Under the pieces are notes generated by a model, which was given only the letters and a program-made list of their open reading frames with translations, searched no databases and had not been told where the DNA came from. Shown here piece by piece: positions 8,291 to 51,670 of a stretch of DNA of 64,000 nucleotides; the first letter of the stretch is position 1; each line of letters opens with the position of its first letter. The stretch lies in contig NZ_QGMP01000001.1 in assembly GCF_003259185.1 (NCBI RefSeq), positions 930,001 through 994,000 on the forward strand, given 5' to 3'. The translations under genes and the position numbers were made by a program. This DNA is from Isoalcanivorax indicus (GTDB taxonomy: Bacteria; Pseudomonadota; Gammaproteobacteria; Pseudomonadales; Alcanivoracaceae).

Positions 8291-8409
8291 GGCCCTCGGG
8301 GGGTGGGTAAGGGTTTTCTGGACCTTCGAGAGGCATGGATGCCGAACGAGAGCCTACATGGATGTACTTGCGGCGTGTCCAGAAAACCCTTACCCACCCC
8401 CCGAGGGCC
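8291..8409 (+). repeat. Intergenic hairpin element B, copy 1 (33-nt arms, 53-nt conserved centre)
   Basis: Arms 8291-8323 and 8377-8409 are perfectly complementary over 33 nt, beginning GGCCCTCGGGGGGTGGG and ending at the loop with GGAC/GTCC. The centre holds two mini-hairpins: GGC-ATGGAT-GCC (8332-8343) and TAC-ATGGAT-GTA (8355-8366), each with a GGA hexaloop when read on the plus strand. The flank before it (GCGTGAC) and after it (ATAACCACC) are shared with other copies. It lies 3' of the minus-strand amidase gene. There is no T-tract on either side, so it is not a standard terminator. Confidence 0.92.
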
Positions 8410-8486
8410 ATAACCACCTCACCAGACAGAATGAAAAAAAACGCCGACGCTCCCACGTCGACGTTCTTCATGTTGCGATGGTGTTA

Positions 8487-10193
8487 TTACTGGTCTTCTT
8501 CCTCAGCAACCAGCTCCGGGTAGTGCACCGGGGCCTGGCGCGGTTTCGCCGTTTCCTGGAAGGCGTAGGCGATACGGATCAGCGTGGCTTCGTCGAATTC
8601 GCGGGCCAGCATTTCCATGCCCACCGGCAGTGCCGGATCAACACCATGGTCCGCACCGGCCATGCCAGCTGGCAGGGTGAGTGTCGGAAAGCCCGAGAAG
8701 GGTGAAAGACGGTTGGCGCTGCCCGCACTCGGGTTGCCGCCCAGGCTGCCCGCCAGGTTCTGCAAGGTTGGATAGAGCAGCACATCGTAGGGTTCGCCCG
8801 CAGGACGACCGGCATTGTCGATGTTGTCCAGCGTCTGCATCAGACGTGGGCGTACATAGGCCGGGCGCTCGACCGTGTTGCGAAGGTAGGTCGCGTTCTC
8901 TGACAGATCCTCGCCGATGTTGTTGCGGTTGCGAATCGTGTTGGTGTTGTTGCTCAGGTAGCCGCCGCTGTCCTGGAATGCCTGGTAAGTGCGCAGGTGG
9001 CCATCCATATCGCTGGTCCAGGATTGCAGATACTCCTGCAGATCGCGGGCGAACTCCAGGCCGGACAGGCTGGCATAGCGACTGAGGATGGTGCTCTGAT
9101 CCGGAATCACCACGTCTTCCACGACCGCGCCTGCTTCACGCATCTTGTCGAGCGCCTCGTTCAGGACGGCCTGCATGATGCCGTTGTCGCCATTGCCGTT
9201 GCCGAACAGACTGCGCACCACGCCGATGCGTGCGCCCTTCAGGCCGTCCTTGTCAAGGAAAGCGGTGTAGGTGGCGGGGATGCCGGTCACGGCCTGATAT
9301 TCGCCGCCGGTGCTGATCAGTGGCGCGTCGATATCAAAGCGGCTGCGCTGGTTGGAGTAGGCGCCCGGATCAAAGCCGACCATGGCGTCCATGGCCAGCG
9401 CGCAGTCTTCCACGGTACGGCACATGGGACCGGCGGTATCCTGGAAGGTAGCCAGTGGCATGACACCGTCCAGGCTCAGCAGGCGCAGGCTGGGGCGGAT
9501 GCCGACCAGGCCGCCGAGGGACGAGGGGACGCGGATCGAGCCGCCGGTGTCGGTGCCCAGACCGAACACCGCCAGGCTGGCGCCGATGGCGGCACCCGTG
9601 CCAGAGGACGAGCCCCCGGCGCCTTTGCTGTGATCGTAGGCGTTTTTCACCAGACCGCGTACTGAGCTGCGACCGACGAAGCCGAAAGCCAGCTCATCCT
9701 GGTTGGCCTTGCCGATGACGATGGCGCCCGCATTGCGCAGGCCGTTGATGATGTAGGCATCGCTGGTGGGCTGGTTGAACTCGAAAGCGGTCGCGCCGCC
9801 GGTGGTGGGCATTTCTGCAGTGTTGATGTTGTCTTTCGGCAGTATCGGAATGCAGGACAGGGGCTTGTCGATACCGGTGACCGGGAAGTTGAGATCGAAT
9901 TCGATGGCCTGGTTGATGGCGTCGGGGTTGATGGCGACCACGGAGGTCAGTTCCGGGCCTTCGATGCTGAAGTCATAGGCTTCAATACGGTCGATATACC
10001 CCTGCACGATGTCTTCGCAGGTTTTCTCTCCGGACAGGATGGCGGCGTGAACGCTGGCCACTGTGGCTTCAGAAAACGAGAAGGGTTGAGGGGTGGGTTC
10101 GGAGGGTGAGGAACTGCTGGATGATGAGCCCCCACATCCGGTCAGCGCCGTGGCAAGCATGGCGGTGCTGACGATCAGCTTCATGTTGAACAT
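8487..10193 (-). CDS. Amidase-signature family hydrolase, predicted lipoprotein
   Basis: The 568-residue protein starts with a lipoprotein signal (MKLIVSTAMLATALTGC) followed by a glycine/serine run (CGGSSSSSSSPSEPTP), a spacer usual in exported lipoproteins. The body is an amidase-signature enzyme: catalytic Lys in CIPILPKDNINT, and the Gly/Ser-rich core GGSSSGTGAAIGAS plus GLGTDTGGSIRVPSSLGGLV holding the cis-Ser and Ser nucleophile. A secreted amidase of this type could act on amides, nitrile-derived amides or peptides; the substrate is unknown. The start at 10193 has AGGA 8-9 nt upstream; an ATG three codons later is the alternative. An upstream in-frame extension to 10352 would bury the signal peptide and is rejected. 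It is a single-gene unit. Confidence 0.88.
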   Translation of the reverse strand: MFNMKLIVSTAMLATALTGCGGSSSSSSSPSEPTPQPFSFSEATVASVHAAILSGEKTCEDIVQGYIDRIEAYDFSIEGPELTSVVAINPDAINQAIEFDLNFPVTGIDKPLSCIPILPKDNINTAEMPTTGGATAFEFNQPTSDAYIINGLRNAGAIVIGKANQDELAFGFVGRSSVRGLVKNAYDHSKGAGGSSSGTGAAIGASLAVFGLGTDTGGSIRVPSSLGGLVGIRPSLRLLSLDGVMPLATFQDTAGPMCRTVEDCALAMDAMVGFDPGAYSNQRSRFDIDAPLISTGGEYQAVTGIPATYTAFLDKDGLKGARIGVVRSLFGNGNGDNGIMQAVLNEALDKMREAGAVVEDVVIPDQSTILSRYASLSGLEFARDLQEYLQSWTSDMDGHLRTYQAFQDSGGYLSNNTNTIRNRNNIGEDLSENATYLRNTVERPAYVRPRLMQTLDNIDNAGRPAGEPYDVLLYPTLQNLAGSLGGNPSAGSANRLSPFSGFPTLTLPAGMAGADHGVDPALPVGMEMLAREFDEATLIRIAYAFQETAKPRQAPVHYPELVAEEEDQ

Positions 10194-10573
10194 AACTGCG
10201 GTCCTGATACGACGTCGTGCGGCGGTCAGCGCAAAAGTGCCGAGCACGACAGAGGTGGTTGCCTCCCTACGTTCGATGGATTGACCAGGGGCCTTCCCGG
10301 TCACGGGCAGGTGAAAGCAGGGGACGTGCCAGAGCTGGCATGTCGCCATCATGCGAAGGTATGTGTATGTTTTATAAGAATGTATACCTAGTGTTTATAG
10401 GGGATTGTCGGGAGTATCTGATGGGGAATGGCAGGATGATGGTGCAGGATCACAGTGCACGGAGTGCCAGAATGGTGCACTAAGTTATTGTTTTAAATGA
10501 TATTTATTGATGGGTGTCCAATTAATAATGGACGTCCATGTTATGACTGGCTGGTCATTTTTGCTGTGCATCA
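10194..10573. other. AT-rich intergenic region upstream of the amidase gene
   Basis: About 380 bp without a supported gene. The part from 10361 to 10405 is clearly AT-rich against the surrounding GC-rich DNA and contains TTTATAAG and TGTATAC, so the amidase promoter probably lies here on the minus strand, but no hexamer pair with proper spacing stands out. A perfect 12-bp palindrome, ATGGACGTCCAT, lies at 10529-10540 in a second AT-rich patch and may be a regulator site. The low GC could mark older insertion or transfer (inference). Confidence 0.4.
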
Positions 10574-10600
10574 TCCCGAAAGCCCGGCGTATGCCGGGCT
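10574..10600 (-). terminator. Hairpin terminator after the aldehyde dehydrogenase gene
   Basis: AGCCCGGC-gtat-GCCGGGCT (10581-10600) is a perfect 8-bp stem. Read on the minus strand it is followed by TTTCGGG, a short T-run. It begins 14 nt past the stop codon of the gene ending at 10614, so it fits a weak intrinsic terminator. Confidence 0.65.
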
Positions 10601-10613
10601 GTACCAGGACGAT

Positions 10614-12203
10614 TTACTGGTCGGTTTTCCAGCCGGTGAACATCTTCTTCAGCAGGAAGGGAGTGAGCTTGAGGCTGCTGCCGAGCCACTCGCCGGCAGA
10701 GCGGGGGAACACGAAGCGCAGCGCGTTGAGCAGCCCCTGCCAGGTGGTCTCGTCAAACGGATACCACCAGAGATTGCGCTTGGCGGGGAGCAGATCCCAG
10801 TTGATGACTTTCGGTTGCGTCATTTCCAGCAGGCCTTCGGGGCCGTGGGTGCGGCCGATACCGGATTGCTTCCAGCCGCCCCAGGGCGTTTCCGACAGCC
10901 CGTGGGTATAGAGGTGGTCGTTGATGGTGGTGACGCCGGATTCCAGCCGTGAGGCAATGGCCCGACCGCGCCGGTTGTTGCGGGTCCAGACGGAAGAGGT
11001 GAGGGCCAGGTAGGAATCGTTGGCGCGGCGGATGGCTTCTTCCTCGTCGGCCACGCGAACGACCGCCAGCACCGGGCCGAAGGTTTCGTCACGCAGGGTG
11101 ATCATGTCGTCGGTGACATCGGTCAGCAATGTGGCCGGGTGGAACAGGCCCCCCTCGGTGCCGCTGGACTGGGCGGCGATTTTCGCGCCCTTGCCCAGGG
11201 CGTCCTCCACATGGTGCTGCACCGTGCGCAACTGGCCGGCGGTGGTGAGGCAGCCGATGTCCACGTCAAAGCGCTGGTGGCCGGGTCCATGCCGGAGGGC
11301 GCGGGTCTTGCTGGCCAGCAGGCGGACGAAGTCGTCGTACACGCTGGCGACGACATAAATGCGTTCGACCCCGCCACAGGATTGCCCGGCATTCTGGTAA
11401 CCCGCCCAGGCGGCGCCGTTGGTGGCACGTTCCAGGTCGGCATCCTCCAGCACGATCATCGGATCATTGCCGCCCAGCTCCAGGGAGACGGGGGTCAGGG
11501 TTTCCGCCGCCTGGGCCATCAGCACCTTGCCGGCATTTACCGAGCCGGTGAAGAACAGCTTGTTGATGCCATGCTCGAAAAAGCCGGTGGCCACCTTGCT
11601 GCCCGAGCCGACGATATGCTGGAACAGCCCGGGCGGCAGATCGCCAGCGGCGACGATATCCTCGATCACCTTGCCCACGGCGGGGGTGGCAGCAGCCACT
11701 TTCAGCAATACGGCGTTGCCCGCCATCAGGGCCATGACGATTTCCCCGAACGGGATCGACAGGGGGTAGTTCCACGGGCTGATGATGCCCACCACGCCCA
11801 GCGGCACATGCTCCATGCGGCTGCGCTTGTTGAAGAACAGGATGCTGCCGCTGGGGCGGCTGCGCGGCTTGAGTACCTTGCCAGCATTGCCAGCGTACCA
11901 CTTGCACGCCAGGGCGCAGGGCAGCACTTCGGTAGCCAGTGCATCGACACGGGTCTTGCCGTTGCTCTGGCTGACCACGCCGGCAATGTGCTCGGCGTTA
12001 TCCACGATATAGCGGCGCATCAGGGTGATGTGACGGGCGCGTTCGGCGAATGACCGGGCGGCCCACTGCGCCTGGGCCTGGCGGGCGCGGACCATGAGGT
12101 CCGGCAGGGTGGAGAGATCGGTTTCCGAGAGCTGGAAAAAGGCGTCGCCGGTGGCCGGATTGACATCCTCCACCTGCGGCAAGCCGGGCGCGGCGATGTT
12201 CAT
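10614..12203 (-). CDS. NAD(P)-dependent aldehyde dehydrogenase
   Basis: This 529-residue enzyme belongs to the aldehyde dehydrogenase superfamily. Key sites are GNAVLLK (162-168; Lys for the cofactor), FTGS (218-221), general base Glu242 in LELGGNDP, and nucleophile Cys276 in NAGQSCGGVERIYV. It oxidises an aldehyde to the acid. The C-terminus extends ~40 residues beyond the usual end and contains amphipathic hydrophobic segments (WYPFDETTWQGLLNALRFVF, SSLKLTPFLLKKMF), as in fatty-aldehyde dehydrogenases that associate with membranes, so a long-chain aldehyde is a reasonable substrate (inference). It stands alone between a terminator and the small gene at 12293. No dedicated regulator is adjacent. 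Confidence 0.9.
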   Translation of the reverse strand: MNIAAPGLPQVEDVNPATGDAFFQLSETDLSTLPDLMVRARQAQAQWAARSFAERARHITLMRRYIVDNAEHIAGVVSQSNGKTRVDALATEVLPCALACKWYAGNAGKVLKPRSRPSGSILFFNKRSRMEHVPLGVVGIISPWNYPLSIPFGEIVMALMAGNAVLLKVAAATPAVGKVIEDIVAAGDLPPGLFQHIVGSGSKVATGFFEHGINKLFFTGSVNAGKVLMAQAAETLTPVSLELGGNDPMIVLEDADLERATNGAAWAGYQNAGQSCGGVERIYVVASVYDDFVRLLASKTRALRHGPGHQRFDVDIGCLTTAGQLRTVQHHVEDALGKGAKIAAQSSGTEGGLFHPATLLTDVTDDMITLRDETFGPVLAVVRVADEEEAIRRANDSYLALTSSVWTRNNRRGRAIASRLESGVTTINDHLYTHGLSETPWGGWKQSGIGRTHGPEGLLEMTQPKVINWDLLPAKRNLWWYPFDETTWQGLLNALRFVFPRSAGEWLGSSLKLTPFLLKKMFTGWKTDQ

Positions 12204-12292
12204 GCGCGGTTCCTCGTTATTGTGTCGGGCGTGTTGTCTGGCACGGTTTCAGTGCATGGGTGTGAACAGGAGTGATGTGAACACAAGTAGGT

Positions 12293-12643
12293 CTATTCGT
12301 CGACCCACTGCCAGCGCAGCGGCTCACCGAAATCGTCGTACAGCAGCTTGCGGCGTGGCTGGCGGCGCTGCAGTCGCACCCGGTTCTTGCGGCGTTGCTG
12401 CTGCTTGCGCGCATCGATGGTGGCCATGACCCGCGTCAGCGGTGTGCGGTCGACCTCCGGCTTGCGCGGGCTGCCCGGTGTGAAACCGGCACGGCGTGCC
12501 GGGCGCTGCCAGTCACCGCCGGTGGGCGCGCCGGAAACCCCCGGCGGCACCGTCTCGATGCGCCCCCCCTTGGCCAGGTAGGCGTCGATCTTGCGCTGCA
12601 GGGCTTCACGTTGCTGGGCTTTGAACGACAAATCCTTGCTCAT
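12293..12643 (-). CDS. Small basic protein with a SutA-like segment
   Basis: The 116-residue protein has an N-terminal helix, FKAQQREALQRKIDAYLAKG (7-26), followed by GRIETVPPGVSG. This resembles the conserved part of Pseudomonas SutA (a small RNA-polymerase-binding protein active in slow growth), which has a similar RDAL...FLSRGGKVQEI stretch; the match is from memory and short. The C-terminal half is strongly basic (ARKQQQRRKNRVRLQRRQPR, 78-97) and ends in DFGEPLRWQWVDE. The acidic N-terminal tail of SutA is missing. The start at 12643 was chosen over upstream in-frame starts because those lie inside dapE. It begins 25 nt after the dapE stop and is probably co-transcribed with it. Confidence 0.6.
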   Translation of the reverse strand: MSKDLSFKAQQREALQRKIDAYLAKGGRIETVPPGVSGAPTGGDWQRPARRAGFTPGSPRKPEVDRTPLTRVMATIDARKQQQRRKNRVRLQRRQPRRKLLYDDFGEPLRWQWVDE

Positions 12644-12668
12644 GACAGAAAGTCTAGGGGAGCAGGCG

Positions 12669-14869
<2,201 letters not shown>

Positions 14870-14969
14870 GATAATCCTTTGTCGGTCTGTCGATAGCAGA
14901 GGCCGTTATTATGCCCGAGCGTGGGCGGGATTTCAGTGTTTGGCGGAGTGGGTCACCCTCCAGCAGAGA

Positions 14970-15158
14970 GGCGTTGAGGCGGGGTACGCCCTTCCGGGAC
15001 CGCTCAAGCCATCCCTGGGCGCTCTTTCTTTGGCCCTCCGGGTCCGGCCCGCCATCACAGATGGCGTGCGTTCGGCGGCGCGCAAAGCATGCTTTGCAAA
15101 ACGCTTGCCTCACCCATGGCCAAAGATGTCCCTACAGGGCGTACCCCGCCTCAACGCC
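14970..15158. repeat. Intergenic hairpin element A, copy 2 (expanded loop)
   Basis: Arms 14970-14992 and 15136-15158 are perfectly complementary over 23 nt and differ from copy 1 by a compensated base pair. The loop matches copy 1 up to CTTTGGCC (15028-15035) and again from TGGCCAAAG (15117-15125); between these lies about 80 nt not found in copy 1. That insert carries two more hairpins: GCCATC-aca-GATGGC (15051-15065) and the perfect 16-nt palindrome GCAAAGCATGCTTTGC (15082-15097). So one hairpin appears to have been inserted into, or lost from, the apical loop of another. Confidence 0.9.
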
Positions 15159-15250
15159 GCAGCGAGATTTGAAGTCTGGTGGTTATAGAACGGTCTGGAG
15201 GAACAAAACCAACGGCCTCCTGCCAGCTTGAAGATCGGGCTGCGCGTGAC

Positions 15251-15369
15251 GGCCCTCGGGGGGCGGGTAAAGGGTTTCTGGACCTTCGAGAGGCATGGAT
15301 GCCGAACGAGAGCCCCCATGGACGGGTTCACGGCGTGTCCAGAAACCCTTTACCCGCCCCCCGAGGGCC
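15251..15369 (+). repeat. Intergenic hairpin element B, copy 2
   Basis: Arms 15251-15283 and 15337-15369 pair perfectly over 33 nt. They differ from copy 1 at several positions (GCGGGTAAAGGG for GTGGGTAAGGGT), each matched by the opposite change in the other arm. The centre has GGC-ATGGAT-GCC (15292-15303) and CCC-ATGGAC-GGG (15315-15326); the second closing stem is CCC/GGG instead of TAC/GTA, again a paired change. Between elements A2 and B2 (15159-15250) the string CTGGAGGAACAAAACC is shared with the A1-B1 gap. Confidence 0.92.
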
Positions 15370-15399
15370 ATGCCTCCCAATCAGCAAAAAAGCACAGAG

Positions 15400-15747
15400 T
15401 TACTTCAGCGCCTCAGCCCAGTCGTCAGGAGAAAAACCGACCAGCAACCCGCCGGGATACTCCACCACGGGCCGCTTGATAAGCGAGGGATTCTCGACGG
15501 CAGCGTCCACGGCAGAGGCCGCATCCATGTCAGCGCGCACGTCCTCGGGCAGCTTGCGCCAGGTGGTGCCACGCCGGTTGATGATGACTTCCCAGCCTTC
15601 GCGCTTGATCCACGCCGCGACCTTTGATTTCGGCGCGCCCGCTTTCTTGTAATCGTGGAAGGTGTAGTCGATACCGGCTTCGTCCAGCCAGGTAAACGCC
15701 TTCTTCATGGTGTCACACGCTTTGATGCCGTAGATCGTGACCGTCAT
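15400..15747 (-). CDS. yffB: ArsC/Spx-family reductase-like protein YffB
   Basis: This 115-residue protein has the thioredoxin-like fold of the ArsC/Spx family: N-terminal MTVTIYGIKACDTMKKA with a single Cys at the ArsC position, the DYKKAGAPKSKVAAWIKREG helix, INRRGTTWRKL, and the late NPSLIKRPVVE motif. YffB proteins bind glutathione, but no arsenate reductase activity is expected since the second Cys is absent. The start at 15747 matches the family start. It follows dapC by 14 nt, and this dapC-yffB-dapD order occurs in pseudomonads. Its link to diaminopimelate synthesis is unknown. Confidence 0.9.
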   Translation of the reverse strand: MTVTIYGIKACDTMKKAFTWLDEAGIDYTFHDYKKAGAPKSKVAAWIKREGWEVIINRRGTTWRKLPEDVRADMDAASAVDAAVENPSLIKRPVVEYPGGLLVGFSPDDWAEALK

Positions 15748-15761
15748 CAGTTGCTGTTCCC

Positions 15762-16946
15762 TCAATAAGTATGTTCGATAAAGCGGCGGATGCGGCGTGC
15801 GCCTTCCTCGCATTCCTCCAGCGTGGCCACGAGTGCCATGCGCACGCGGCCGGCGCCGGGATTCAGGCCGCCCACGTCGCGGGACAGGTAGCGGCCCGGC
15901 AGCACCGTGACGTTTTCAGTGCGCTTGAGCTCGCGGGCAAAGTGTTCGTCATCACCAGCGGGGACTTCCGGCCACAGGTAAAAACCGGCTTCGGGAGCAC
16001 TGACGTTCATGAGCGGCTGGAGAATCTCCAGTACGGCGCGGAATTTTTCCCGGTACAGTCGCCGGTTTTCCCGCACATGCGCCTCGTCGTTCCAGGCAGC
16101 CATGCTGGCCAGTTGATGGTGCGGGGGCATGGCGCAGCCGTGGTAGGTACGGTAGCGCAGGAACTGCTTCAGCACGGCGGCGTCGCCTGCGGCGAAGCCC
16201 GAGCGCAGGCCGGGCAGGTTCGAGCGTTTTGACAGGGAGTGGAAGACGACGCAGCGGGCGTAGTCGTGGCGGCCCATGTCGGCGCAGGCTTGCAGCAGCC
16301 CCGGGGGAGGCGTCTGGTCGTAAATCTCTGAGTAGCATTCGTCCGAGGCGATGATGAAGTCGTGCTCGTCGGCCAGGCGAATCAGTGACTGGAGTTGTTC
16401 GAGGCTCATCACGGCGCCGGTGGGGTTGCCCGGTGAGCAGATATACAGCAGCTGGCAGCGCTGCCAGGTGTCGACGCTGACGGCGTCGTAATCCGGCTGC
16501 AGGCCGTGTTCGGGGGTGCAGGGCAGGTATTCCGGTTCGCCGCCGGCCAGCAGGGTGGCGCCTTCATAGATCTGGTAGAACGGGTTCGGCATCAGCACCT
16601 TCGGTCGGGTGCTGCGGTCCAGCACGGCCTGGGCGAAGGCGAACAGGGCTTCGCGGGTGCCGGTGACGGGCAGCACCTGTTCCACCGCCAGGCGATTCAG
16701 GTCGAAGCGCCGTTTCAGCCAGCCAGCGATGGTCTCGCGCAGGGCGGGCAGGCCGAGGGTGGTGGGGTAGCGGGCCAGTTCGGCGCTGTGGGCGCGCAGG
16801 GCGTCCTGCACCAGGGCCGGGGCCGGGTGCTGGGGTTCGCCGATGGACAGGGCGATCGGCGGTTTGCTGGCCGGGCTCAGGCCGTCGAACAGCTGTGCCA
16901 GTTTTTCAAAGGGGTAGGGATGCAACAGGTCCAGATCAGGATTCAT
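15762..16946 (-). CDS. dapC: Succinyldiaminopimelate transaminase
   Basis: The 394-residue protein is a fold-type I, class I/II aminotransferase that converts N-succinyl-2-amino-6-oxopimelate to N-succinyl-LL-diaminopimelate with glutamate. Visible motifs are IGEPQHPAP near the N-terminus, the PLP ring-stacking region, YICSPGNPTGAVM, IASDECYSEIYD, the Schiff-base Lys in HSLSKRSNLPGLRSG, and the substrate-carboxylate Arg in GRVRMALV. The start MNPDLDLLHPYPFEKLAQL at 16946 matches DapC proteins and lies 11 nt from the glnD stop, so glnD-dapC-yffB form one minus-strand run. Direct linkage to dapD and dapE supports DapC rather than another aminotransferase. Confidence 0.93.
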   Translation of the reverse strand: MNPDLDLLHPYPFEKLAQLFDGLSPASKPPIALSIGEPQHPAPALVQDALRAHSAELARYPTTLGLPALRETIAGWLKRRFDLNRLAVEQVLPVTGTREALFAFAQAVLDRSTRPKVLMPNPFYQIYEGATLLAGGEPEYLPCTPEHGLQPDYDAVSVDTWQRCQLLYICSPGNPTGAVMSLEQLQSLIRLADEHDFIIASDECYSEIYDQTPPPGLLQACADMGRHDYARCVVFHSLSKRSNLPGLRSGFAAGDAAVLKQFLRYRTYHGCAMPPHHQLASMAAWNDEAHVRENRRLYREKFRAVLEILQPLMNVSAPEAGFYLWPEVPAGDDEHFARELKRTENVTVLPGRYLSRDVGGLNPGAGRVRMALVATLEECEEGARRIRRFIEHTY

Positions 16947-16957
16947 GGGTCTCGTGC

Positions 16958-19666
16958 TCAGATGGACAGGCCGTTGGCAGGCAGGGTGGCGTCGCTGGTG
17001 GTGTCGTCCAGTTCTTCGATCAGGCGCTGCTGCAGGCGTTCGCACAGGGCCGGGTCGGAGATCGGGGTGCCGTCTTTCTGGGTCACGAAGAACACGTCTT
17101 CGGCGCGCTCACCCAGGGTGGCGATGCGGGCATTCTGCAACAGCAGGCCGAACTCCATGAACAGGCGGCCGACGCGGGCCAGAAGGCCGGGGCGGTCCAG
17201 GGTGAGGATATCCACCACCGTGTGATCGTTGACGATGTCGTTGCTGATGATGACCCGTGTCGGCACCTTGAAGTGGCGGTGGCGACGGGGCATGCGGCGC
17301 TGGACGATATCGCCGAAGTTGCCCGGGTCCGAGAGGGCCTCGGTCAGGGTTTCGCGGATGGCATCCAGGCGCGGGCGGTCGTTGCCGATGGGGGTGCCGT
17401 GTTCATCCAGCACGATATAGCTGTCCAGGCTGAAGCCATCGGCCGAGGTGATGATGCGTGCGTCCATGATGGTCAGGTTGAGCTGGTCCAGCGCGTTTAC
17501 CGTGGCGGCGAACAGGTTCTCGGTGTCCGGGGTATAGACAAAAATCTGGGTGCCGCCTTCATGCTGGCTGCTGCTGGTTTCGCGAATCAGTACCAGGGGC
17601 GCACCGGGATTGTCCCGGGCCAGCATGGCTTCGGTATGCCAGGCGATGTCCACGGCGTTTTCGCGCAGGAAATATTCATCGCCGATGCCGGCCCACAGCT
17701 GTTCGACTTGCTGCACGGGCAGCTGTCGCTGTTGCAGGATGCGCAGGGCTTCGTCGCGGGTTTCGTCGATCCAGTCCTGCTTGTCCACCGGGTTGTTCAG
17801 GCCGCGGCGCAGGGCGCGTTTGGTTTCCAGATACAGCTGGCGCAGCAATGAATCGCGCCAGGTGTTCCACAGGGCCGGGTTGGTGGCGTTGATGTCCGAG
17901 ACGGTCAGCACATAGAGGTAATCCAGATGCACCAGGTCGCCCACCTGGCGGGCGAAATCGTACACCACTTCCGGGTCGGCGATGTCCTTGCGCTGGGCGG
18001 TCACCGACATGACCAGATGGCTGCGCACCAGCCAGGCCACCAGTTTGGCATCCCAGCTGCTCAGGCCATGGCGCTGGCAGAAGGCGATGGCGTCGTCGGC
18101 GCCGAGTTCGGAGTGGTCGCCGCCGCGCCCTTTGGCGATGTCGTGATAGAGCCCGGCGACATACAAGAGCTCCGGTTTCGGCAGGCGGTAGAACACATCG
18201 CAGGCGAGGGGGAATTTTTCCCGGGTTTCCTCGTGCCGCAGGCGGCGCATGTTCTTCACCACCAGCAGGGTGTGTGCATCCACGGTGTAGATATGAAACA
18301 GGTCGTACTGCATCAGGCCGATGATGTTGCCGAATTCCGGCAGGTACTGGCCCAGAATGCCGTAGCGTTTCATGCGCCGCAGTTGCGTGAACAGGGCATG
18401 GGGTGAGCGCAGCAACTGCATGAACAGGGCCGTGTTGCGCGGGTCGGCCCGGAAGGCATCGTCGATCAGCTTGCGATGTGCGATCACTTCCCGGATGGTG
18501 CTGGCGCGCACGCCTTTCAGGTCCGGGTGCTGGGCCATCACCACGAACAGTTCCAGCAGTGTCGAGGGTTGTTCCTCGAACACCTTCGGGCCGGTCACTT
18601 CCAGGTAATCGTTGTGGATGCGGAAGCGCCGGTTCAGTGGCAGCACGCGCTGCGGCTGATCGTGCTGGACAATGGCTTCATCGAACAGCTGCAGCAGCAT
18701 TTCATTGAGCACCGACAGGGCCAGCGACACGCGGTAGAAACGTTTCATGAACACTTCCACCGCCAGGTTGGAGCTGGAGTCTTCATGGCCGAGCAGGGCG
18801 GCGACCTGGCGCTGGTGATCGAACAACAGGCGGTTTTCGTTGCGGCCGCTGACCTGGTGCAGGGCCCAGCGGATTTCGAACAGCACTTCCTGGCAGCGTT
18901 CCAGCATGGAGAATTCGCGGGCCGTGAGAAAACCCAGGTCCACCAGCTGGTCGAGCCGGTCCACGTCGAAATGGCGCTTCGCCACCCAGCCGACCATCTG
19001 CAGGTCGCGCAGGCCGCCGGGGGCGTTCTTCATGTCCGGTTCAAGGTTGTATTCAGTGTCGTTGTGCTTGCGGTGACGGGCCACCTGCTCGGCGCACTTG
19101 GCGGCATAGAAGTCGGCGGTGGGCCAGATATGCGTGGGGCCGGTGCGTTCGGCCAGCCGGGCGCGCAGGGTGTCGTCGCCAGCCAGGGTACGCGCTTCCA
19201 TGATATTGGTGGCCACGGTGATGTCTTCGCGGGCCAGGTCCACACATTCGTCCAGCGTGCGCACGCTGTGGCCGATTTCCAGGCCAGTGTCCCAGAGGAA
19301 GGCAACGAACTGTTCCAGTTTGCCGCACAGGGCATCGCCCGGCGCGCTGGCCAGCAGGATCAGCACATCGACATCCGAGTGCGGGTGCAGTTCGCCACGG
19401 CCATAGCCGCCCACGGCCACCAGGGCGATGTCGGGGAAGCCGTCGCAACCGCCCTCCAGGGCGAACAGGTCCCAGCCCGCTTGCAGGATGCGGTCCACCA
19501 GCAGGGCGCGGCCACCGACGAGGTCGCGGATGGGGGTGTCCATGAAGGCGGCGTCGAGACGGGCCTGGCCCTCGCTCAGCAGGGTGCGGGCCGCCTTGCC
19601 CGGGCTGCGGTGCTCGCCCAGGGCGGCGGTGATCTGTTCGCGTGTCAGGGCCGGTTCAAATGTCAT
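16958..19666 (-). CDS. glnD: [Protein-PII] uridylyltransferase/uridylyl-removing enzyme
   Basis: The 902-residue protein is the nitrogen sensor GlnD, which uridylylates PII proteins at low glutamine and removes UMP at high glutamine. The nucleotidyltransferase domain carries GGYGRGELHPHSDVDVLIL (about residue 95). A GlnD-type helical domain follows, then the HD hydrolase domain with LYHDIAKGRGGDHSELG (about 530) and SHLVMSVTAQRKDI. Two C-terminal ACT domains bind glutamine: one around IFVYTPDTENLFAATV and one around VDILTLDRPGLLARVGRLF. All catalytic residues look intact. The start at 19666 is used because the upstream in-frame extension is low-complexity and lacks homology. It lies 84 nt behind map. 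Confidence 0.97.
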   Translation of the reverse strand: MTFEPALTREQITAALGEHRSPGKAARTLLSEGQARLDAAFMDTPIRDLVGGRALLVDRILQAGWDLFALEGGCDGFPDIALVAVGGYGRGELHPHSDVDVLILLASAPGDALCGKLEQFVAFLWDTGLEIGHSVRTLDECVDLAREDITVATNIMEARTLAGDDTLRARLAERTGPTHIWPTADFYAAKCAEQVARHRKHNDTEYNLEPDMKNAPGGLRDLQMVGWVAKRHFDVDRLDQLVDLGFLTAREFSMLERCQEVLFEIRWALHQVSGRNENRLLFDHQRQVAALLGHEDSSSNLAVEVFMKRFYRVSLALSVLNEMLLQLFDEAIVQHDQPQRVLPLNRRFRIHNDYLEVTGPKVFEEQPSTLLELFVVMAQHPDLKGVRASTIREVIAHRKLIDDAFRADPRNTALFMQLLRSPHALFTQLRRMKRYGILGQYLPEFGNIIGLMQYDLFHIYTVDAHTLLVVKNMRRLRHEETREKFPLACDVFYRLPKPELLYVAGLYHDIAKGRGGDHSELGADDAIAFCQRHGLSSWDAKLVAWLVRSHLVMSVTAQRKDIADPEVVYDFARQVGDLVHLDYLYVLTVSDINATNPALWNTWRDSLLRQLYLETKRALRRGLNNPVDKQDWIDETRDEALRILQQRQLPVQQVEQLWAGIGDEYFLRENAVDIAWHTEAMLARDNPGAPLVLIRETSSSQHEGGTQIFVYTPDTENLFAATVNALDQLNLTIMDARIITSADGFSLDSYIVLDEHGTPIGNDRPRLDAIRETLTEALSDPGNFGDIVQRRMPRRHRHFKVPTRVIISNDIVNDHTVVDILTLDRPGLLARVGRLFMEFGLLLQNARIATLGERAEDVFFVTQKDGTPISDPALCERLQQRLIEELDDTTSDATLPANGLSI

Positions 19667-41339: not shown

Positions 41340-41404
41340 CCGGTGAAAAGGCCGCAGTTTTCCGCCGCCCGGTCGTATTTCAGTGGATGGCGCCGGGTTT
41401 TTAA

Positions 41405-45611
<4,207 letters not shown>

Positions 45612-45625
<14 letters not shown>

Positions 45626-46316
45626 TGCTCGGGTCTTTGCACTGGTGCCTGCCGCCGGCAGCGGCACGCGCATGGCCGCTGCCCTGCCGAAACAGTACCT
45701 GTCCCTGGATGGCCGCACCCTGGCTGAGCACACTGTCAATCGATTGCTGGCCTGCGCCCGTATCGAGCGCGTCATGGTAGCCGTGGCGGCGGATGACCCC
45801 TGGTGGTCGGCGCTGCCAGTGGCGCGCCAGCGGCGCGTCAGCACCACCATCGGCGGCGCCGAACGGGCCGACTCCGTGCTGCGTGGCGTGCAGGCCCTGG
45901 CCGACTGGGCGCGGGATGACGACTGGGTGCTGGTGCATGACATGGCGCGACCGTGCCTGCGGGTCTCCGATATTCACCGGCTGCTGGACGCCTGCGGCGA
46001 GCAGGGGGCCATACTGGCGTCGCCGGTCACCGACACCGTCAAGCAGGCGGACGCCGAGGGCCGCATCAGCGCCACCTTGCCGCGCAGCTGCATCTGGCGT
46101 GCCCTGACCCCGCAACTGTTCCCGCTGGGCGCCCTGCGTGAGGCGCTGCAGGCTGCCCTGGCAAACGGCTTGCAGGTCACCGACGAGGCCTCGGCCATGG
46201 AGGCCCGGGGCTGGCAGCCTGTGCTGGTGCTGGGACGGGCTGACAATATCAAGGTGACGGTGCCGGAAGATCTGGCGCTGGCCGCTTTCTATCTGGCGCA
46301 ACAGGAGGACGCATGA
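45612..46316 (+). CDS. ispD: 2-C-methyl-D-erythritol 4-phosphate cytidylyltransferase
   Basis: The 234-residue enzyme joins CTP and methylerythritol phosphate in the MEP pathway. The CTP-binding loop [19 protein letters not shown] is at the N-terminus; [27 protein letters not shown] and the late [11 protein letters not shown] complete the pattern. In the usual VHDAARP motif this copy has VHDMARP. Start 45612 has GAGG 9 nt upstream; the ATG at 45603 abuts that GAGG and is less likely. The gene overlaps ftsB (14 nt) and ispF (ATGA). Confidence 0.95.
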
Positions 46317-46807
46317 GCCTGCGTATCGGCCAGGGCTTTGATGTGCATGCCTTCGGCCCGGGCGATCATGTGATGCTCGGTGGCGTGCGTATCCCCCACG
46401 ATCATGGCCTCAAGGCGCATTCCGATGGCGACGTGGCGCTGCACGCGCTGGCGGATGCCTTGCTGGGTGCGCTGGCCCTGGGCGATATCGGCCATTTCTT
46501 TCCGGACACGGATGACCGCTGGGCGGGCGCGGATTCCGGCGTGTTGCTGCGCGAGGTGTACCGGCAGATCCAGGCCCGTGGCTACCGCCTCGGCAATGCC
46601 GACATCACCATCATTGCCCAGCGTCCGAAGATGGCGCCGCATATCCAGCCCATGCGCGAGCGTATTGCCGGGCTGCTGCACTGTGCCCCGGGTGCCGTAT
46701 CGGTGAAGGCCACGACCAGCGAAAAGCTCGGGTTTACCGGCCGCGAGGAGGGCATTGCCGTGATGGCGGTGGTGCTGTTGCAGGCGACGACGGCGGCCGC
46801 ACCGTGA
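46313..46807 (+). CDS. ispF: 2-C-methyl-D-erythritol 2,4-cyclodiphosphate synthase
   Basis: The 164-residue trimeric enzyme cyclises CDP-methylerythritol 2-phosphate. Zinc ligands are in GFDVHAF (Asp, His) and in the [22 protein letters not shown] stretch, with the DG-H-S-DGDV loop ([16 protein letters not shown]) and the [19 protein letters not shown] end. Both flanking junctions are 4-nt overlaps, tying ispD, ispF and truD into one translationally coupled unit. Confidence 0.97.
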
Positions 46808-47832
46808 GCACCTTGCCGCGTGCCCATGGCGGCCCGGTGGGGCAGGGCCGGTTGCGGGCCAGCCCCGAGGATTTCCATGTCAGCGAAGTGATGGCGGTGG
46901 CGCCGGACGGGCAGGGCGAGCACCTGTGGCTGCATCTGCGCAAACGTGGCCTGAATACGGCGGATCTGGCGCTGTCCCTGGCGCGCCTGGCGGGCCTGCC
47001 CCTGCGCGCCGTGGGTTACAGCGGCCTCAAGGACCGTGTGGCGGTGACCGAACAGTGGTTCAGCCTGCACCTGCCGGGCAAGCCCGACCCCGCCCTGGAT
47101 GCCTTGCCCGAGGGCGTGACATTGCTGGGCGCCGCACGGCACAGCCGCAAACTCAATCGCGGTACCCACCGGGCCAACCGCTTCGAACTCGTGATCCGCG
47201 ATCTGGAAGCCGACCCCGCGACTCTGCTGCAACGCCTTGAGGCGGTGGCCGCCCAGGGCGTGCCCAACTATTTCGGCGAGCAACGCTTCGGCCGTCATGG
47301 CGACAACTTCAGCCGCGCCCGGGACTGGCTCCTGGGCGACGGCGAGGCCCCGCGCAAACCCGCCCTGCGCAGCCTGTGGCTGTCGGCGGTGCGTAGCGAG
47401 CTGTTCAATCAGGTGCTGGCGGAACGGGTGCGTCAGGGCTGCTGGAACCAGTTGCTGACGGGCGATATCCTGCAGCCCGACGGGCGACGTGGCCTGTTCC
47501 TGGCGGATGAGGACAGCGATGCCGCCGCGCGCCTGACCGCTGGTGAAGTGCATCCGACAGCGCCTATGCCCGGTGCCGACGGCATGGCATCATCAGGCGC
47601 CTGTGCCGCACTGGAGGCCGCCGTGCTGGCAGAGCACGCCCCCCTGATCGATGCCCTGGCCGCGCATCGGGTGGAAGGCGCGCGCCGCGCCACACGTCTG
47701 CCGGTGCAGGATTTCAGCTGGCAACTGCCAGAGGAGGCCGTGGCGGGCATACTGCGTCTGGGGATGACGCTGCCCGCCGGTGCCTTTGCGACCACGGTGC
47801 TGGCGGAGCTGCTGACGTTCGGGAATACATGA
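46804..47832 (+). CDS. truD: tRNA pseudouridine(13) synthase TruD
   Basis: The 342-residue enzyme makes pseudouridine 13 in tRNA-Glu. It opens with [20 protein letters not shown]; the catalytic Asp77 lies in [17 protein letters not shown]. Further family stretches are [33 protein letters not shown] and the TruD insertion. The start is GTG at 46804, overlapping ispF. In many relatives surE follows; here pcm follows directly with an ATGA overlap. Confidence 0.95.
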
Positions 47833-48512
47833 GGGTGGGGAACAACGTGACGGAAGTGAATCGTTCCGGAATTGGTATGACTTCAGCACGCACACGCGAG
47901 CGACTGGTCAGCCGCTTGCGCGAAAAGGGCATCAGCGACGTGCGGGTGCTGGACCTGATCCGCAGCACCCCCCGTCATCTGTTCATCGAAGAGGCCCTGG
48001 CACACCAGGCCTATGACGATACCGCCTTGCCCATCGGCCACGGGCAGACCATCTCCCAGCCCTGGGTGGTGGCGCGCATGACGGAACTCCTGATTGAACC
48101 CGGCGTGCCGCGCAAGGTCCTTGAAGTGGGCACCGGCAGTGGCTACCAGACCGCTATCCTGGCCGCGCTGTGCACGGACGTCTATTCCGTAGAGCGGATT
48201 CGCCCGCTGCAGGAGCAGGCACGTCGACGTTTGCTGTCGCTGGGGCTGGCCCGCGTCCAGTTGCGCCACGCGGACGGTGGTCTGGGCTGGACCTCCGAAG
48301 CGCCGTTCGACGGCATTCTGGCGGCCTGTGGCCGGGCGGATATCCCCGATGACCTGCTGGCGCAGCTGGCCGATGGCGGGCGACTGGTGATGCCGGTGGG
48401 AGAACAGGACCAGCAGTGGCTGACCGTGGTGGACCGCCACGGCGATGATTTTCGTGTCACGCGCCTGGATGCGGTGCGATTTGTGCCCTTCCAGCGTGGC
48501 ATTCTGCGCTGA
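47829..48512 (+). CDS. pcm: Protein-L-isoaspartate O-methyltransferase
   Basis: The 227-residue protein methylates isoaspartyl residues in damaged proteins. The SAM-binding motif EVGTGSGYQTAILAAL, the active-site loop DDTALPIGHGQTISQPWVVARMTELL and the C-terminal LDAVRFVPFQRGIL are intact. An ATG at 47877 (MTSARTRERL) would give the shorter start found in Pseudomonas; 47829 is used because of the overlap with truD. In the usual GDGWxGW motif this copy has ADGGLGW. Confidence 0.93.
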   Translation: MRVGNNVTEVNRSGIGMTSARTRERLVSRLREKGISDVRVLDLIRSTPRHLFIEEALAHQAYDDTALPIGHGQTISQPWVVARMTELLIEPGVPRKVLEVGTGSGYQTAILAALCTDVYSVERIRPLQEQARRRLLSLGLARVQLRHADGGLGWTSEAPFDGILAACGRADIPDDLLAQLADGGRLVMPVGEQDQQWLTVVDRHGDDFRVTRLDAVRFVPFQRGILR

Positions 48513-48530
48513 CCGTCGGGAGACAAGGCA

Positions 48531-49460
48531 GTGAAACGATATTCAGGGGTCTGGCTGCGCGGCATGGCCATGGGCGCCGCCGATATAGTGCCTGGCGTGT
48601 CCGGCGGCACCATGGCGCTGATCACCGGGATCTACGCCGAACTGATCAACACCCTGGCCGGTATCCGGCCGCGCCTGCTGGGCATCTGGCGCCGTGAAGG
48701 TCTGGCCGCCGCCTGGCGCGCCGGTAACCTGACCTTCCTGTTTACGCTGCTGGGCGGCATGCTCACCAGCATCCTGCTGCTGGCACGGCTGATCATCTGG
48801 GTCATGGCCCATTACCCCGTGCCCCTGTGGGCCTTTTTCTGCGGCCTGATTGTGGCCAGCATCATCATCGTTCTGCGGCCGCTCAAGCAGTTTGGTTTCG
48901 GCACCTGGCTGGCCCTGGTGGTGGGCGTGCTGTTTGCCGGCTGGGTGGCGACCCGCCCCGGGCTGGATGCCTTCGGCCTGTCGCCGATGGTGTTCTTCGT
49001 CTCCGGCGCGATCGCCATCTGCGCCATGATCCTTCCGGGCATTTCCGGCAGCTTCATCCTGTTGCTGCTGGGCATGTACGCCCCGGTGCTGGCCGCCGTG
49101 AATGACAGCCATCTGCTGCTGCTTGCCGCCTTCGCCGGGGGCTGTGCCTGTGGTCTGCTGACGTTTGTGCATTTTTTACGATGGGCCCTGGTCCGCTTCC
49201 ACGACCTGGTCATGGCGCTGCTGGCGGGCTTCATGGCCGGGTCGCTGGTGCGCCTGTGGCCCTGGCGCATCGCCGCAGAGCCGGGCGCTGTGCTGGAACG
49301 CACAGTGTTGCCCGCCCGCTACACGGCGGAGACCGGCCTGCCCGCGATGGTCGTTCCCGCGCTGCTGGCGCTGCTGGGCGGCCTGCTGCTGGTCTGGCTA
49401 CTGTCGCGCCCCGGCAGGCATAATGAGGCGAACCCGGCAGCAGAGAACAGGACGCCTTGA
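48531..49460 (+). CDS. DUF368 (PopT-type) membrane protein, probable undecaprenyl-phosphate transporter
   Basis: The 309-residue membrane protein has about eight hydrophobic helices and two inverted copies of the DUF368 signature: MGAADIVPGVSGGTMALITG near the start and ICAMILPGISGSFILLLLG in the middle. DUF368 proteins (PopT) have been shown in other bacteria to return undecaprenyl phosphate across the membrane for reuse. The start is GTG at 48531 with GGGAG upstream. Its stop overlaps the TTG start of nlpD. Placement between pcm and nlpD links lipid-carrier recycling to wall hydrolysis control (inference). The tail is polar and Asn/Glu-rich. Confidence 0.88.
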   Translation: MKRYSGVWLRGMAMGAADIVPGVSGGTMALITGIYAELINTLAGIRPRLLGIWRREGLAAAWRAGNLTFLFTLLGGMLTSILLLARLIIWVMAHYPVPLWAFFCGLIVASIIIVLRPLKQFGFGTWLALVVGVLFAGWVATRPGLDAFGLSPMVFFVSGAIAICAMILPGISGSFILLLLGMYAPVLAAVNDSHLLLLAAFAGGCACGLLTFVHFLRWALVRFHDLVMALLAGFMAGSLVRLWPWRIAAEPGAVLERTVLPARYTAETGLPAMVVPALLALLGGLLLVWLLSRPGRHNEANPAAENRTP

Positions 49461-50374
49461 GGCCCGATCGCCGCACTCTGATTCATTGGCCCCGCGAGTG
49501 GCACAGACTCCGCCAGGGCCGTGTGTTGCGCCGCCTGGCGGGGCTGGCCTTGCTGGTGCTGTGCTCGGCGGGCTGTGCCGCCAATCAGGCGCCCGTGGTC
49601 GAGTATGATGCCTCCGGCGCCCGCAGCGGCACCGGCACCCTGAGCAGTCGCCCCTCCCAGGTCACCCAGGGCAGCCATACGGTGGTACGCGGCGATACGC
49701 TGTTTTCCATCGCCTGGCGATACGGGTGGGATTACCGCGAACTGGCGGCCGCCAACAACATCAGCGCCCCCTTCACGATTCGCCCGGGCCAGGAAATCCG
49801 CCTGGACCGCCGAGCACCGGCCACCGCAGGACGTCCGGCATCGCCGCCTGCCAGCACAGCGCAGCGCCCGCCGCAACCGCAGACACCGGCACCCACCCCG
49901 CAACAGCCGCCCCGGCAAACCCCGGCGTCACCACCGCAGGCCTCCTCCCCACCGGCAGCCTCCACACCCTCGACGCCACCGCGCGTGGCCGGCACCGGGG
50001 ACGTGCAATGGCGCTGGCCCGCCAGCGGCGACCTGCTGTCCCGCTTCTCGGCCCAGCAGGCCGGGCAGACCGGCATCCGCATCGCTGGCCGCGACGGTGA
50101 TCCTGTGGTCGCGGCGGCGGCGGGCGTGGTGGTCTATCGCGGCAACGGTCTCACCGGCTACGGCAACCTGCTGATCGTCAAGCACAATGATCGCTGGCTC
50201 TCGGCCTATGCCCACAACGACAGCATGCTGGTCCGTGAAGGCGATAGCGTGGATGCGGGCCAGCGTATTGCGACCATGGGCGCGACGGGCACTTTCCGCA
50301 CCCAGCTGCACTTCGAGATTCGCCGCGACGGCCAGCCGGTCGACCCGCTGACCCTGTTGCCGCGCCGGTCCTGA
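49457..50374 (+). CDS. nlpD: Murein hydrolase activator NlpD (LysM and degenerate M23 lipoprotein)
   Basis: The 305-residue lipoprotein has a lipobox LCSAGC (about residue 40), a LysM domain (SHTVVRGDTLFSIAWRYGWD...), a Pro/Ala/Gln-rich linker (about 120-180) and a C-terminal M23/LytM domain. The first zinc His is absent (GIRIAGRDGD) as in E. coli NlpD, so it should not cut peptidoglycan but activate an AmiC-type amidase at the septum. The late AYAHNDSMLVREGD, ATMGATG and LHFEIRRDGQPVDP motifs are present. TTG start at 49457 overlaps the DUF368 stop. rpoS, usually the next gene, is not here. Confidence 0.92.
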   Translation: MRPDRRTLIHWPREWHRLRQGRVLRRLAGLALLVLCSAGCAANQAPVVEYDASGARSGTGTLSSRPSQVTQGSHTVVRGDTLFSIAWRYGWDYRELAAANNISAPFTIRPGQEIRLDRRAPATAGRPASPPASTAQRPPQPQTPAPTPQQPPRQTPASPPQASSPPAASTPSTPPRVAGTGDVQWRWPASGDLLSRFSAQQAGQTGIRIAGRDGDPVVAAAAGVVVYRGNGLTGYGNLLIVKHNDRWLSAYAHNDSMLVREGDSVDAGQRIATMGATGTFRTQLHFEIRRDGQPVDPLTLLPRRS

Positions 50375-50378
50375 GCCG

Positions 50379-51296
50379 ATGCCTGCGCACAAGGCGTCCT
50401 CCCTGACTGTGGCCCAACAGGCCCGTTTGCTGCGCCGCGTCACGCTGGCCTCGGTATGCGTGGCCCTGATCCTGATTGTGGCCAAGGCGGTGGCCTGGTG
50501 GCTGAGTGGCTCGGTGGCCCTGCTGGCGTCACTGCTGGATTCGCTCATGGATGCCGCCGCCTCACTGGTCACGCTGGTGGCGGTGCGCTACTCCCTGGTG
50601 CCCGCTGATGCCGAGCATCGTTTCGGCCACGGCAAGGCAGAAGCCCTGGCCGGACTGGGCCAGGCGGCCTTCATTACCCTGTCGGCACTGTTCCTGCTCA
50701 GCGAAGGCGTGCGCCGCCTGATCGACCCGGCACCGGTGGCGGCCACGGGTCTGGCTCTGGGGGTCATGGTGCTGTCCATCGTGCTGACGGTGCTGCTGGT
50801 GCAGTTTCAGCATCGGGTGGTGCGCCACACCGGCTCGACCGCTGTGGCGGGTGATGCGCTGCATTACGCGTCGGACCTGGCCATGAACATCGCCATCATC
50901 GGTGCCATTGTGGCGGCGCATTACGGTTATCTGCGGGTGGACAGTCTGGTGGCGTTGGCGGTGGGGGCTTATATCCTGGTGGCCGCCTGGCGCATCGGCA
51001 ACCAGGCGGTGCAATTGCTGCTGGATCGCGAATTACCGGACGAGGAGCGCCAGCATATCGCGGCGGTGATCGGCGCCCAGCCGGGCGTGCTGGGCTTCCA
51101 TGACCTGCGCACGCGTCAGTCCGGCCGCACGCGCTTTGTCCAGGTGCATGTGGAGCTGGACGAAACCCTGTCCCTGCGCGAGGCCCATGCGCGCATTGTC
51201 GAGATTGGCGCGGCGATAGGTGCTGCGGTGCCGGGCGCCGAGGTGATCATTCATGCGGACCCAGTGACGCCCGGGGCGGCTGACGGTGTGCGCTGA
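50379..51296 (+). CDS. Cation diffusion facilitator family transporter (FieF-like)
   Basis: The 305-residue protein has six membrane helices and a C-terminal metal-binding cytoplasmic domain. The two transport-site motifs are DSLMDAAASL (helix 2) and HYASDLAMN (helix 5), i.e. DxxxD and HxxxD; the DxxxD form with Asp instead of His in helix 2 is the FieF/YiiP kind, which exports zinc or iron by proton antiport. Also typical is HRFGHGKAEALAGL. It begins 4 nt after nlpD, so it is likely read from the same transcript, in the place usual for rpoS. Confidence 0.92.
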   Translation: MPAHKASSLTVAQQARLLRRVTLASVCVALILIVAKAVAWWLSGSVALLASLLDSLMDAAASLVTLVAVRYSLVPADAEHRFGHGKAEALAGLGQAAFITLSALFLLSEGVRRLIDPAPVAATGLALGVMVLSIVLTVLLVQFQHRVVRHTGSTAVAGDALHYASDLAMNIAIIGAIVAAHYGYLRVDSLVALAVGAYILVAAWRIGNQAVQLLLDRELPDEERQHIAAVIGAQPGVLGFHDLRTRQSGRTRFVQVHVELDETLSLREAHARIVEIGAAIGAAVPGAEVIIHADPVTPGAADGVR

Positions 51297-51342
51297 CTTT
51301 CTGTTTTGGCTTGGGTCCATTCTGTTGGGTTGTGGTGGTTAT

Positions 51343-51461
51343 GGCCCTCGGGGGGCGGGTACAGGGTTTCTGGACACGCCGTGAATACATCCATGTAGGC
51401 TCTCGTTCGGCATCCATGCCTCTCGAAGGTCCAGAAACCCTGTACCCGCCCCCCGAGGGCC
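51343..51461 (-). repeat. Intergenic hairpin element B, copy 3 (reverse orientation)
   Basis: Arms 51343-51375 and 51429-51461 pair perfectly over 33 nt. The 53-nt centre, read on the minus strand, matches copy 1 almost base for base, with GGC-ATGGAT-GCC and TAC-ATGGAT-GTA. The arms have GTACAGGG against CCCTGTAC where copies 1 and 2 have other, likewise paired, bases. The minus-strand upstream flank CAGGCTGCGCGTGAC is shared with copies 1 and 2. It lies 46 nt past the stop of the cation transporter gene. Confidence 0.92.
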
Positions 51462-51551
51462 GTCACGCGCAGCCTGGTTAACAACTTCCAGCCTACAGCT
51501 GCAACTGAGCAAGCGGTTGGCGCAGAGTGTGTGATGGCCTCTGAACGTGAC

Positions 51552-51670
51552 GGCCAGCGGGGGTGGGGGACTGCTTTTCAGGACTGTCGAGAGGCATGGA
51601 TGCCGAACGCAAGCCTACAGGGACGTATTCACGGCGTGTCCTGAAAAGCAGTCCCCCACCCCCGCTGGCC
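51552..51670 (+). repeat. Intergenic hairpin element B, copy 4 (divergent arms)
   Basis: Arms 51552-51584 and 51638-51670 pair perfectly over 33 nt but are far from the other copies (GGCCAGCGGGGGTGGGGGAC inward to TTTTCAGGAC). Only the outer GGCC and inner GGAC ends persist. The centre keeps GGC-ATGGAT-GCC (51599-51603 and around) and has TAC-AGGGAC-GTA (51615-51626). It faces copy 3 across 90 nt, and lies 41 nt past the 3' end of rnt. Flanks CGTGAC before and ACAACCACC after are shared with copy 1. Confidence 0.92.

Follow-up and report, generated by a model that had tools for sequence, protein, structure and literature searches.

What keeps the two arms of an intergenic hairpin paired while the arms themselves diverge strongly from copy to copy? 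The question is posed by four elements in a 64,000-nucleotide (nt) stretch of the Isoalcanivorax indicus genome (assembly GCF_003259185.1, contig NZ_QGMP01000001.1, positions 930,001 to 994,000), which we call the window and number from its first letter. An earlier note, made from the letters alone, had attributed the pairing to selection on an RNA or single-stranded DNA structure, or to a process that copies one arm from the other. The sequence comparisons below give good support to selection on the pairing of both arms and core, with the wobble signature of an RNA transcribed in the sense that carries GGA motifs in its loops (GGA-sense RNA, from the GGA strand). Our favored reading, to which we assign a probability of about one half, is that the element is a dispersed, recombining repeat whose GGA-sense transcript is functional and places docking hairpins of the CsrA type at transcript ends.

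Inverted pairs around a two-motif core

The four copies are each 119 nt long, as first described, with 33-nt arms that pair without a mismatch: copy 1 at 8291..8409 (+), copy 2 at 15251..15369 (+), copy 3 at 51343..51461 (-) and copy 4 at 51552..51670 (+). All four exist, but they are halves of three inverted pairs, in which two partners had been overlooked. Copy 1 is paired with a minus-strand element at 8087..8199 (outer ends set by inspection) across a spacer at 8200..8290 between the facing 5' ends, copy 2 with an interrupted minus-strand element at 14969..15159, and copies 3 and 4 with each other across a spacer at 51462..51551, in which no sigma-70-like promoter or intrinsic terminator was seen (scan of 51200-51800). 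Sub-types recur among the elements; under our own labels A to D, copies 1 to 3 are type A, copy 4 is type D, and the partners of copies 1 and 2 are type C, the latter as a split match whose first hairpin loop holds about 73 nt of inserted sequence.

A covariance model of the core, R1, was built from 25 diverse elements (alignment A2, comprising 27 diverse rows minus two chance matches, L019 and L073). In the window it matches copy 1 at 8312-8389 (92.0 bits), copy 2 at 15272-15349 (90.8 bits), copy 3 at 51363-51440 (92.1 bits), copy 4 at 51573-51650 (89.3 bits), the partner of copy 1 at 8104-8181 (52.2 bits) and, weakly, the partner of copy 2 at 14987-15058 (18.3 bits, E 0.026). For the GGA strand, the predicted fold of the core is a three-way junction from which two short hairpins branch, with the long arms closing it. 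The first hairpin (e.g., GGC-AUGGAU-GCC) is reached via a helix with a G-A rich internal loop, and inspection places GA/GA or AGA/GAA opposite it in many rows and other bases in some; the second hairpin is, for example, UAC-AUGGAC-GUA or CCC-AUGGAU-GGG, and the basal stem is long and nearly perfect, at about 28-33 base pairs. Folded as RNA, copy 1 gave z-scores of -10.8 and -12.2 for its two strands, and copy 4 folded as DNA gave -12.1, with 0 of 200 shuffles as stable in each case; these scores cover the two named copies of the four.

Covariation and arm mismatches were examined on 142 R1 matches (131 distinct rows) from 80 named contig stretches out of at least 120. Core cells were paired in 92.3% of cases against 68.1% after shuffling (131 distinct rows), and the covariation score was 0.597, against 0.170 in shuffled alignments (0 of 500 reached the observed value) and 0.06-0.11 when the alignment was slid. 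Two-sided changes were seen in 19 of the 21 modelled core pairs, a count matched by 1 of 500 shuffles, while the other measures were matched by none. These core figures come from an alignment fitted to the model; even so read, covariation of the core came out far beyond both controls, and a covariance search of the kind that the earlier note had proposed found R1 matches in the same genome and in many related bacteria.

The GGA motifs themselves are strand specific. Exactly two ANGGA motifs per core occur on the GGA strand in 114 of the 127 elements that entered the mismatch count described below (more in 9, fewer in 4), and the opposite strand has none in 122 of them. All 40 of a further set of elements also have exactly two. 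Judged from sequence, GGA-sense RNA can fold into a long stem with a predicted three-way junction and two hairpins exposing ANGGA, which is the arrangement of at least two ANGGA in hairpin loops per RNA expected of CsrA/RsmA-type sites.

Some of the first description holds only locally. The constant length of 119 nt with 33-nt arms is a property of this group of copies, whereas among 139 of the 142 matches, all from other bacteria, arm length was most often 28 and varied between 8 and 35 (three others had arms below 8). The outer GGCC and inner GGAC/GTCC are not the only fixed parts, because further positions are also fixed among the four. Variable length and some unpaired positions, both of which had been named as speaking against maintained pairing, do occur across the family.

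Strand-specific wobble in the arms

An RNA helix accommodates G-U but not A-C, and reading the opposite strand swaps the two. Mismatches in the arms can therefore tell which strand is paired. The count took in 127 of the 142 elements, 15 being omitted for having fewer than 17 of 25 Watson-Crick pairs, and on the GGA strand the isolated mismatches were 151 G-U, 16 A-C and 64 others. The excess of G-U over A-C persisted at 48:10 when one was counted per site per cluster and at 27:5 with one element per arm cluster, and it was seen in Xanthomonadaceae and their kin (121:13) as well as in all other carriers (30:3).

Two further samples gave the same direction. Forty high-scoring places fetched afterwards from 5 genomes (one of them, L347, being the same place as L051, an A2 row) had G-U:A-C of 24:3 (p 5e-5), or 6:1 with one element for each of their 10 clusters. 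One element from each of 36 genomes gave 17:3 (p 0.003), and 15:1 outside the part covered by the model; this set comprised 38 loci from 38 genomes oriented by their two ANGGA motifs, with L094 and L320 omitted since the match lay elsewhere in the locus. An excess of G-U over A-C on the GGA strand indicates that pairing is maintained in GGA-sense RNA, and these sequence counts make a strong case for selection at the RNA level in that sense. Of the structures that the earlier note had left open, it is therefore an RNA, read from the GGA strand, that the mismatches favor.

Pairing in the arms is tight without being absolute. The arms of the four window copies are fully paired, but in 34 copies of this genome, selected for A- or D-type ends and at most three arm mismatches, 6 of 1122 arm pairs were not Watson-Crick (2 GT, 2 CA, 1 AA and 1 CT). 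The same copies showed 1487 two-sided against 197 one-sided arm differences. Seven copies of genome G094, chosen from 11 for their near-identical cores, had 5' arms that differed by 42% on average, with 211 two-sided and 11 one-sided differences over 21 comparisons and 4 of 175 arm pairs not Watson-Crick. Pairwise comparisons of this kind are not independent events. The scarcity of one-sided intermediates nevertheless suggests that selection is joined by a copying of arms or of whole units, and such copying may help to keep the arms matched; to this extent the copying proposed from the four window copies fits the data, as the less direct part of the explanation.

Gene ends and repeat turnover

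The element is widespread. BLAST places it at about 40 sites in this 3.44-Mb, 9-contig genome, the window four included (many of the 100 BLAST rows are the same hairpin read on the other strand), and R1 gave 67 matches at E up to 0.05 in 34 fetched stretches. Within the order, 74 of 194 genomes in 42 of 96 genera carry R1 matches, often with at least 24 scored places per genome, and within the class 46 of 274 genomes (41 of 222 genera) do, so that the core is conserved across Gammaproteobacteria. Carriers among the matches listed include Marinobacter, Halopseudomonas, Alcanivorax, Microbulbifer, Haliea, Xanthomonas, Stenotrophomonas and Aquisalimonas. Pattern matches also occurred on metagenome-assembled contigs labelled Nitratireductor (L145) and Klebsiella pneumoniae (L222), outside the usual carrier groups, and these are possibly cases of misbinning.

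Inverted pairing is the rule in this genome, where 56 of the 67 R1 matches have an inverted partner with 5' ends facing within 450 nt; some of the 11 partnerless matches lie at contig ends or have an interrupted partner. The gap between A and B matches was 87 nt at 8 of 12 A-B loci. Elsewhere, 79 of 139 elements stand in inverted pairs with facing 5' ends, 51 are unpaired and 9 lie too near an edge. Near-identical elements were seen in opposite contig orientation at L104 (G159) and L105 (G132). Genome G008 carries an array that differs from the inverted pairs seen elsewhere, six elements in a row on one strand with a period of 226-229 nt (L083, C1:94431-95644).

Relative to genes, the elements keep to the ends. 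In other bacteria, any overlap with a predicted gene stayed within 60 nt for all 139 elements, genes there being called by our own codon-based finder, trained on this window and applied to other species. The upstream gene is co-directional for 39 of the 51 single copies (p 2e-4); for 17 of these 39 the stop codon of that gene is within 80 nt, and nine single copies also have the next co-directional start within 70 nt. In this genome 26 of 56 core matches fall between convergent predicted genes, and at 19 loci the copy nearest each gene end is antisense, read outward from the gene. Transcripts entering from either side of such a pair would cross one antisense and one sense copy.

This placing is also what would be expected of a 3'-end stem acting as an RNA stabilizer, processing site or read-through block, with loops that serve folding only and no involvement of CsrA. 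The position near stop codons and between convergent genes and the great stability of the stem both agree with it, as does the T-rich AATTTTTCGC that follows the 3' arm in copies of genome G127. These G127 copies are, however, different from the rest: over the 139 elements, T makes up 12% of the 12 nt past the 3' arm, no average U-tract being present elsewhere, and neither there nor in the scan of 51200-51800 was the stem-loop plus T-run of an intrinsic terminator observed. A pure 3'-end stem also leaves unexplained why two ANGGA loops on one strand are kept through changes of the stem, and we regard it as unlikely. In G127 (L241-L269), many copies are followed by TTTTTCGCYTARGCGAAAAA-like palindromes and a common CCGGATG stretch, as if a larger unit were conserved around the element.

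The copies also turn over. Orthologous gene ends were compared with genome G005, a closer relative than the genome G003 considered below, by our own tally of 38 sides, 11 of which were not comparable; over the other 27, with flanks 88-100% identical, the nearest element type was the same on 12, changed on 12 and unclear on 3. Units appear to have flipped in the pair at 51 kb and at L009 and L027. The G005 draft consists of about 200 contigs and is often broken at these repeats, so some type changes may be assembly faults, while the changes at 51 kb and at L016 lie within G005 contigs. In genome G003, 12 of 14 comparable loci with flanks 78-92% identical lack an element, and R1 matches only the other two (BLAST against four element types plus an R1 search of the 14 fetched G003 stretches). 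Many sites were therefore gained after the split, or lost in G003; the empty-site alignments are too diverged to define exact element ends or a target site duplication. These comparisons of sequence support a mobile, recombining history, whatever its mechanism.

Such a history invites the view that the element is a mobile palindrome at the DNA level, of the repetitive extragenic palindrome (REP) or miniature inverted-repeat transposable element (MITE) type, spread by transposition or recombination, with its arms matched by template switching during replication and with no function as RNA. The empty sites in G003, the unit types that change between close relatives, the pair geometry resembling bacterial interspersed mosaic elements (BIMEs) and the few one-sided arm differences all agree with this. 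A process acting on DNA, however, would not favor G-U over A-C on one strand, and it leaves the co-directional placing of single copies unexplained. The only gene of the Y1_Tnp (RAYT-like) family found in the genome has no R1 match (E up to 0.1) within the 3.3 kb fetched around it. Y1_Tnp was the only family searched for a cognate MITE transposase, and with no element beside its gene an origin of the RAYT/REP kind was set aside. Neither the window element, against 72,556 plasmid and 50,697 phage records, nor one G127 element, against plasmid and phage collections, found a match, and viral contigs gave no match to one core pattern. We consider a DNA-only palindrome improbable. The open reading frames within the widely spaced G095 pair and within the 1-kb pair of L172 were read as ordinary genes and not as a transposase, no family search having been made.

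A single-stranded-DNA hairpin read by a recombinase through strand-specific loop bases, like integron attC, would account for the strand-specific conserved loops on a long stem and for unit exchange and apparent inversion, but it is very improbable, as the G-U tolerance is of the RNA type and the copies of this genome stand singly or paired at many places with no cassette array, the row of six in G008 being an exception.

The insert in the partner of copy 2 starts with GTGAGRCAAGCG and recurs at about 73-84 nt, with small inverted repeats of its own. It lies at about 15040-15112 of the window, about 2010-2093 of L041 and about 2280-2357 of L010, in element types A, B and C, in each case breaking the GGA loop after CAKGG, and it is present in G005 also (L296). 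It has the look of another small element, one whose targets are the GGA loops of these repeats.

Likeness to TwoAYGGAY and a possible CsrA role

The closest known RNA is TwoAYGGAY (RF01731), in which a shared outer stem likewise bears a pair of hairpins with AYGGAY-like loops, and the outer stem is poorly conserved there too, according to the available text of PMC4333381. Many copies share, by inspection, G-A rich positions beside the first hairpin (GA-GGC...GCC-GA), and tandem G-A pairs in the stem are stated for TwoAYGGAY in the part of PMC4333381 at hand. RF01731 matches in relatives also form minus/plus pairs (e.g., in G117), and R1 recovers the RF01731 elements of G127 at 20-33 bits. The gathering cut-off of RF01731 (43 bits) was reached in 7 of 95 genomes of the order, among them G127, where 18 of the 40 matches at E up to 0.001 exceed it. 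The best two scores in this genome were 39.6 and 33.5 bits, and L050 scored 31.8; with the window elements below the cut-off, we call them TwoAYGGAY-like and not members. At gathering scores Rfam found only a t44 RNA in the window (RF00127, 20682-20808), and low-threshold matches to animal and plant microRNA families were read as long-stem look-alikes.

TwoAYGGAY has been handled as an RNA family of unknown function, with CsrA binding proposed, in PMC4333381, and PMC2864571 lists it as a probable RNA that probably does not regulate in cis, with human gut, gamma-Proteobacteria and Clostridiales as its sources (both in the text available). The available text of PMC4333381 does not give what distinguishes the present elements, namely their dispersal as a repeat in inverted pairs, with long perfect stems that are specific to each locus, and the Rfam matches given in the accessible part of an Alcanivorax small RNA (sRNA) study (PMC9788540) do not include TwoAYGGAY. 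No description of the dispersed repeat was found in the open literature, supplements (that of PMC2864571 included) not being covered, and a literature search by the hairpin sequences returned nothing related. The elements share with REP/BIME sequences, REPINs and the Pseudomonas fluorescens repeats R0, R2 and R178 (PMC2718517, compared by the description in its accessible text) their many extragenic palindromic copies, inverted pairs and a preference for tail-to-tail gene ends, but they are far longer than REPs, are branched and show an RNA wobble pattern.

The loop anatomy makes docking of CsrA/RsmA likely, as a putative function. Rfam clan CL00106 holds TwoAYGGAY together with RsmY, and the accessible part of PMC7937890 describes both a preference of CsrA/RsmA for such motifs in hairpin loops and, as a lead only, the binding of Pseudomonas putida Rsm proteins to intergenic RNAs that include a long palindromic region. 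In strain KT2440, the region downstream of PP_3547 is bound by Rsm proteins according to PMC7937890. In the order sample, csrA was found in 73 of 74 element-positive and 109 of 120 other genomes (Fisher p 0.03, both searches taken as covering the same 194), a weak association. CsrA-family matches numbered 19 in G218 (a 5.0-Mb genome), 11 in G102, 9 each in G050 and G173, and at most 6 in the others.

The sRNAs CsrB, CsrC, RsmX, RsmY and RsmZ have several GGA motifs each. Like the present elements, these decoys carry GGA in hairpin loops and, as far as the sources at hand go, are thought to titrate CsrA; they differ in that the elements here occupy dozens of loci with two motifs each and without a recognized promoter in the one pair scanned.

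If the elements are docking hairpins at transcript ends, each sense copy would lie within 3'-untranslated or intercistronic RNA, a CsrA/RsmA dimer would clamp both of its hairpins, and the stem would keep the site nuclease-resistant at the end of the transcript. Many copies would jointly form distributed CsrA docking or decoy sites as well as local 3'-end control elements; both the role at transcript ends and the decoy action are inferred. Copies would spread as inverted-pair units and exchange by mutual recombination, which together with selection would keep the arms matched as their sequences drift.

Several observations weigh against this reading. A fair share of the isolated mismatches, 64 of 231, are neither G-U nor A-C, and mutation biased by strand could contribute to the excess of G-U, although hardly to a ratio of 24:3. 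The window elements stay below the RF01731 cut-off. Almost all genomes of the order have CsrA (182 of 194), so its presence says little, and the element-positive G215, an 88% complete draft, shows no CsrA. For 12 of the 51 single copies, the upstream gene is on the opposite strand, and in pairs, where the nearest copy is antisense, an mRNA must pass one hairpin before reaching the sense copy. At L015 and L021 a canonical terminator-like stem-loop with a T-run stands between gene and element, and neither a promoter-like nor a terminator-like site was found at 51200-51800, the sole region scanned.

Three features, namely the wobble signature, the way single copies are oriented and the arrangement in inverted pairs, open the proposed link between TwoAYGGAY and CsrA to direct tests in common laboratory strains. 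A further step, which we put forward tentatively and hold to be possible rather than probable, is that a selfish-looking, recombining repeat has come to serve as a Csr antenna for the whole genome, in which tens of transcript ends carry CsrA clamps on stems that are constantly rewritten, through copying from arm to arm or unit to unit, and rarely unpaired, and in which the number and arrangement of sites evolve by repeat turnover and not through one sRNA gene. The element family offers many natural experiments on how long, perfect stems stay paired despite changes in sequence. If the docking function is true, a dispersed repeat that is easily dismissed as intergenic filler would underlie part of the global CsrA regulation of many Gammaproteobacteria.

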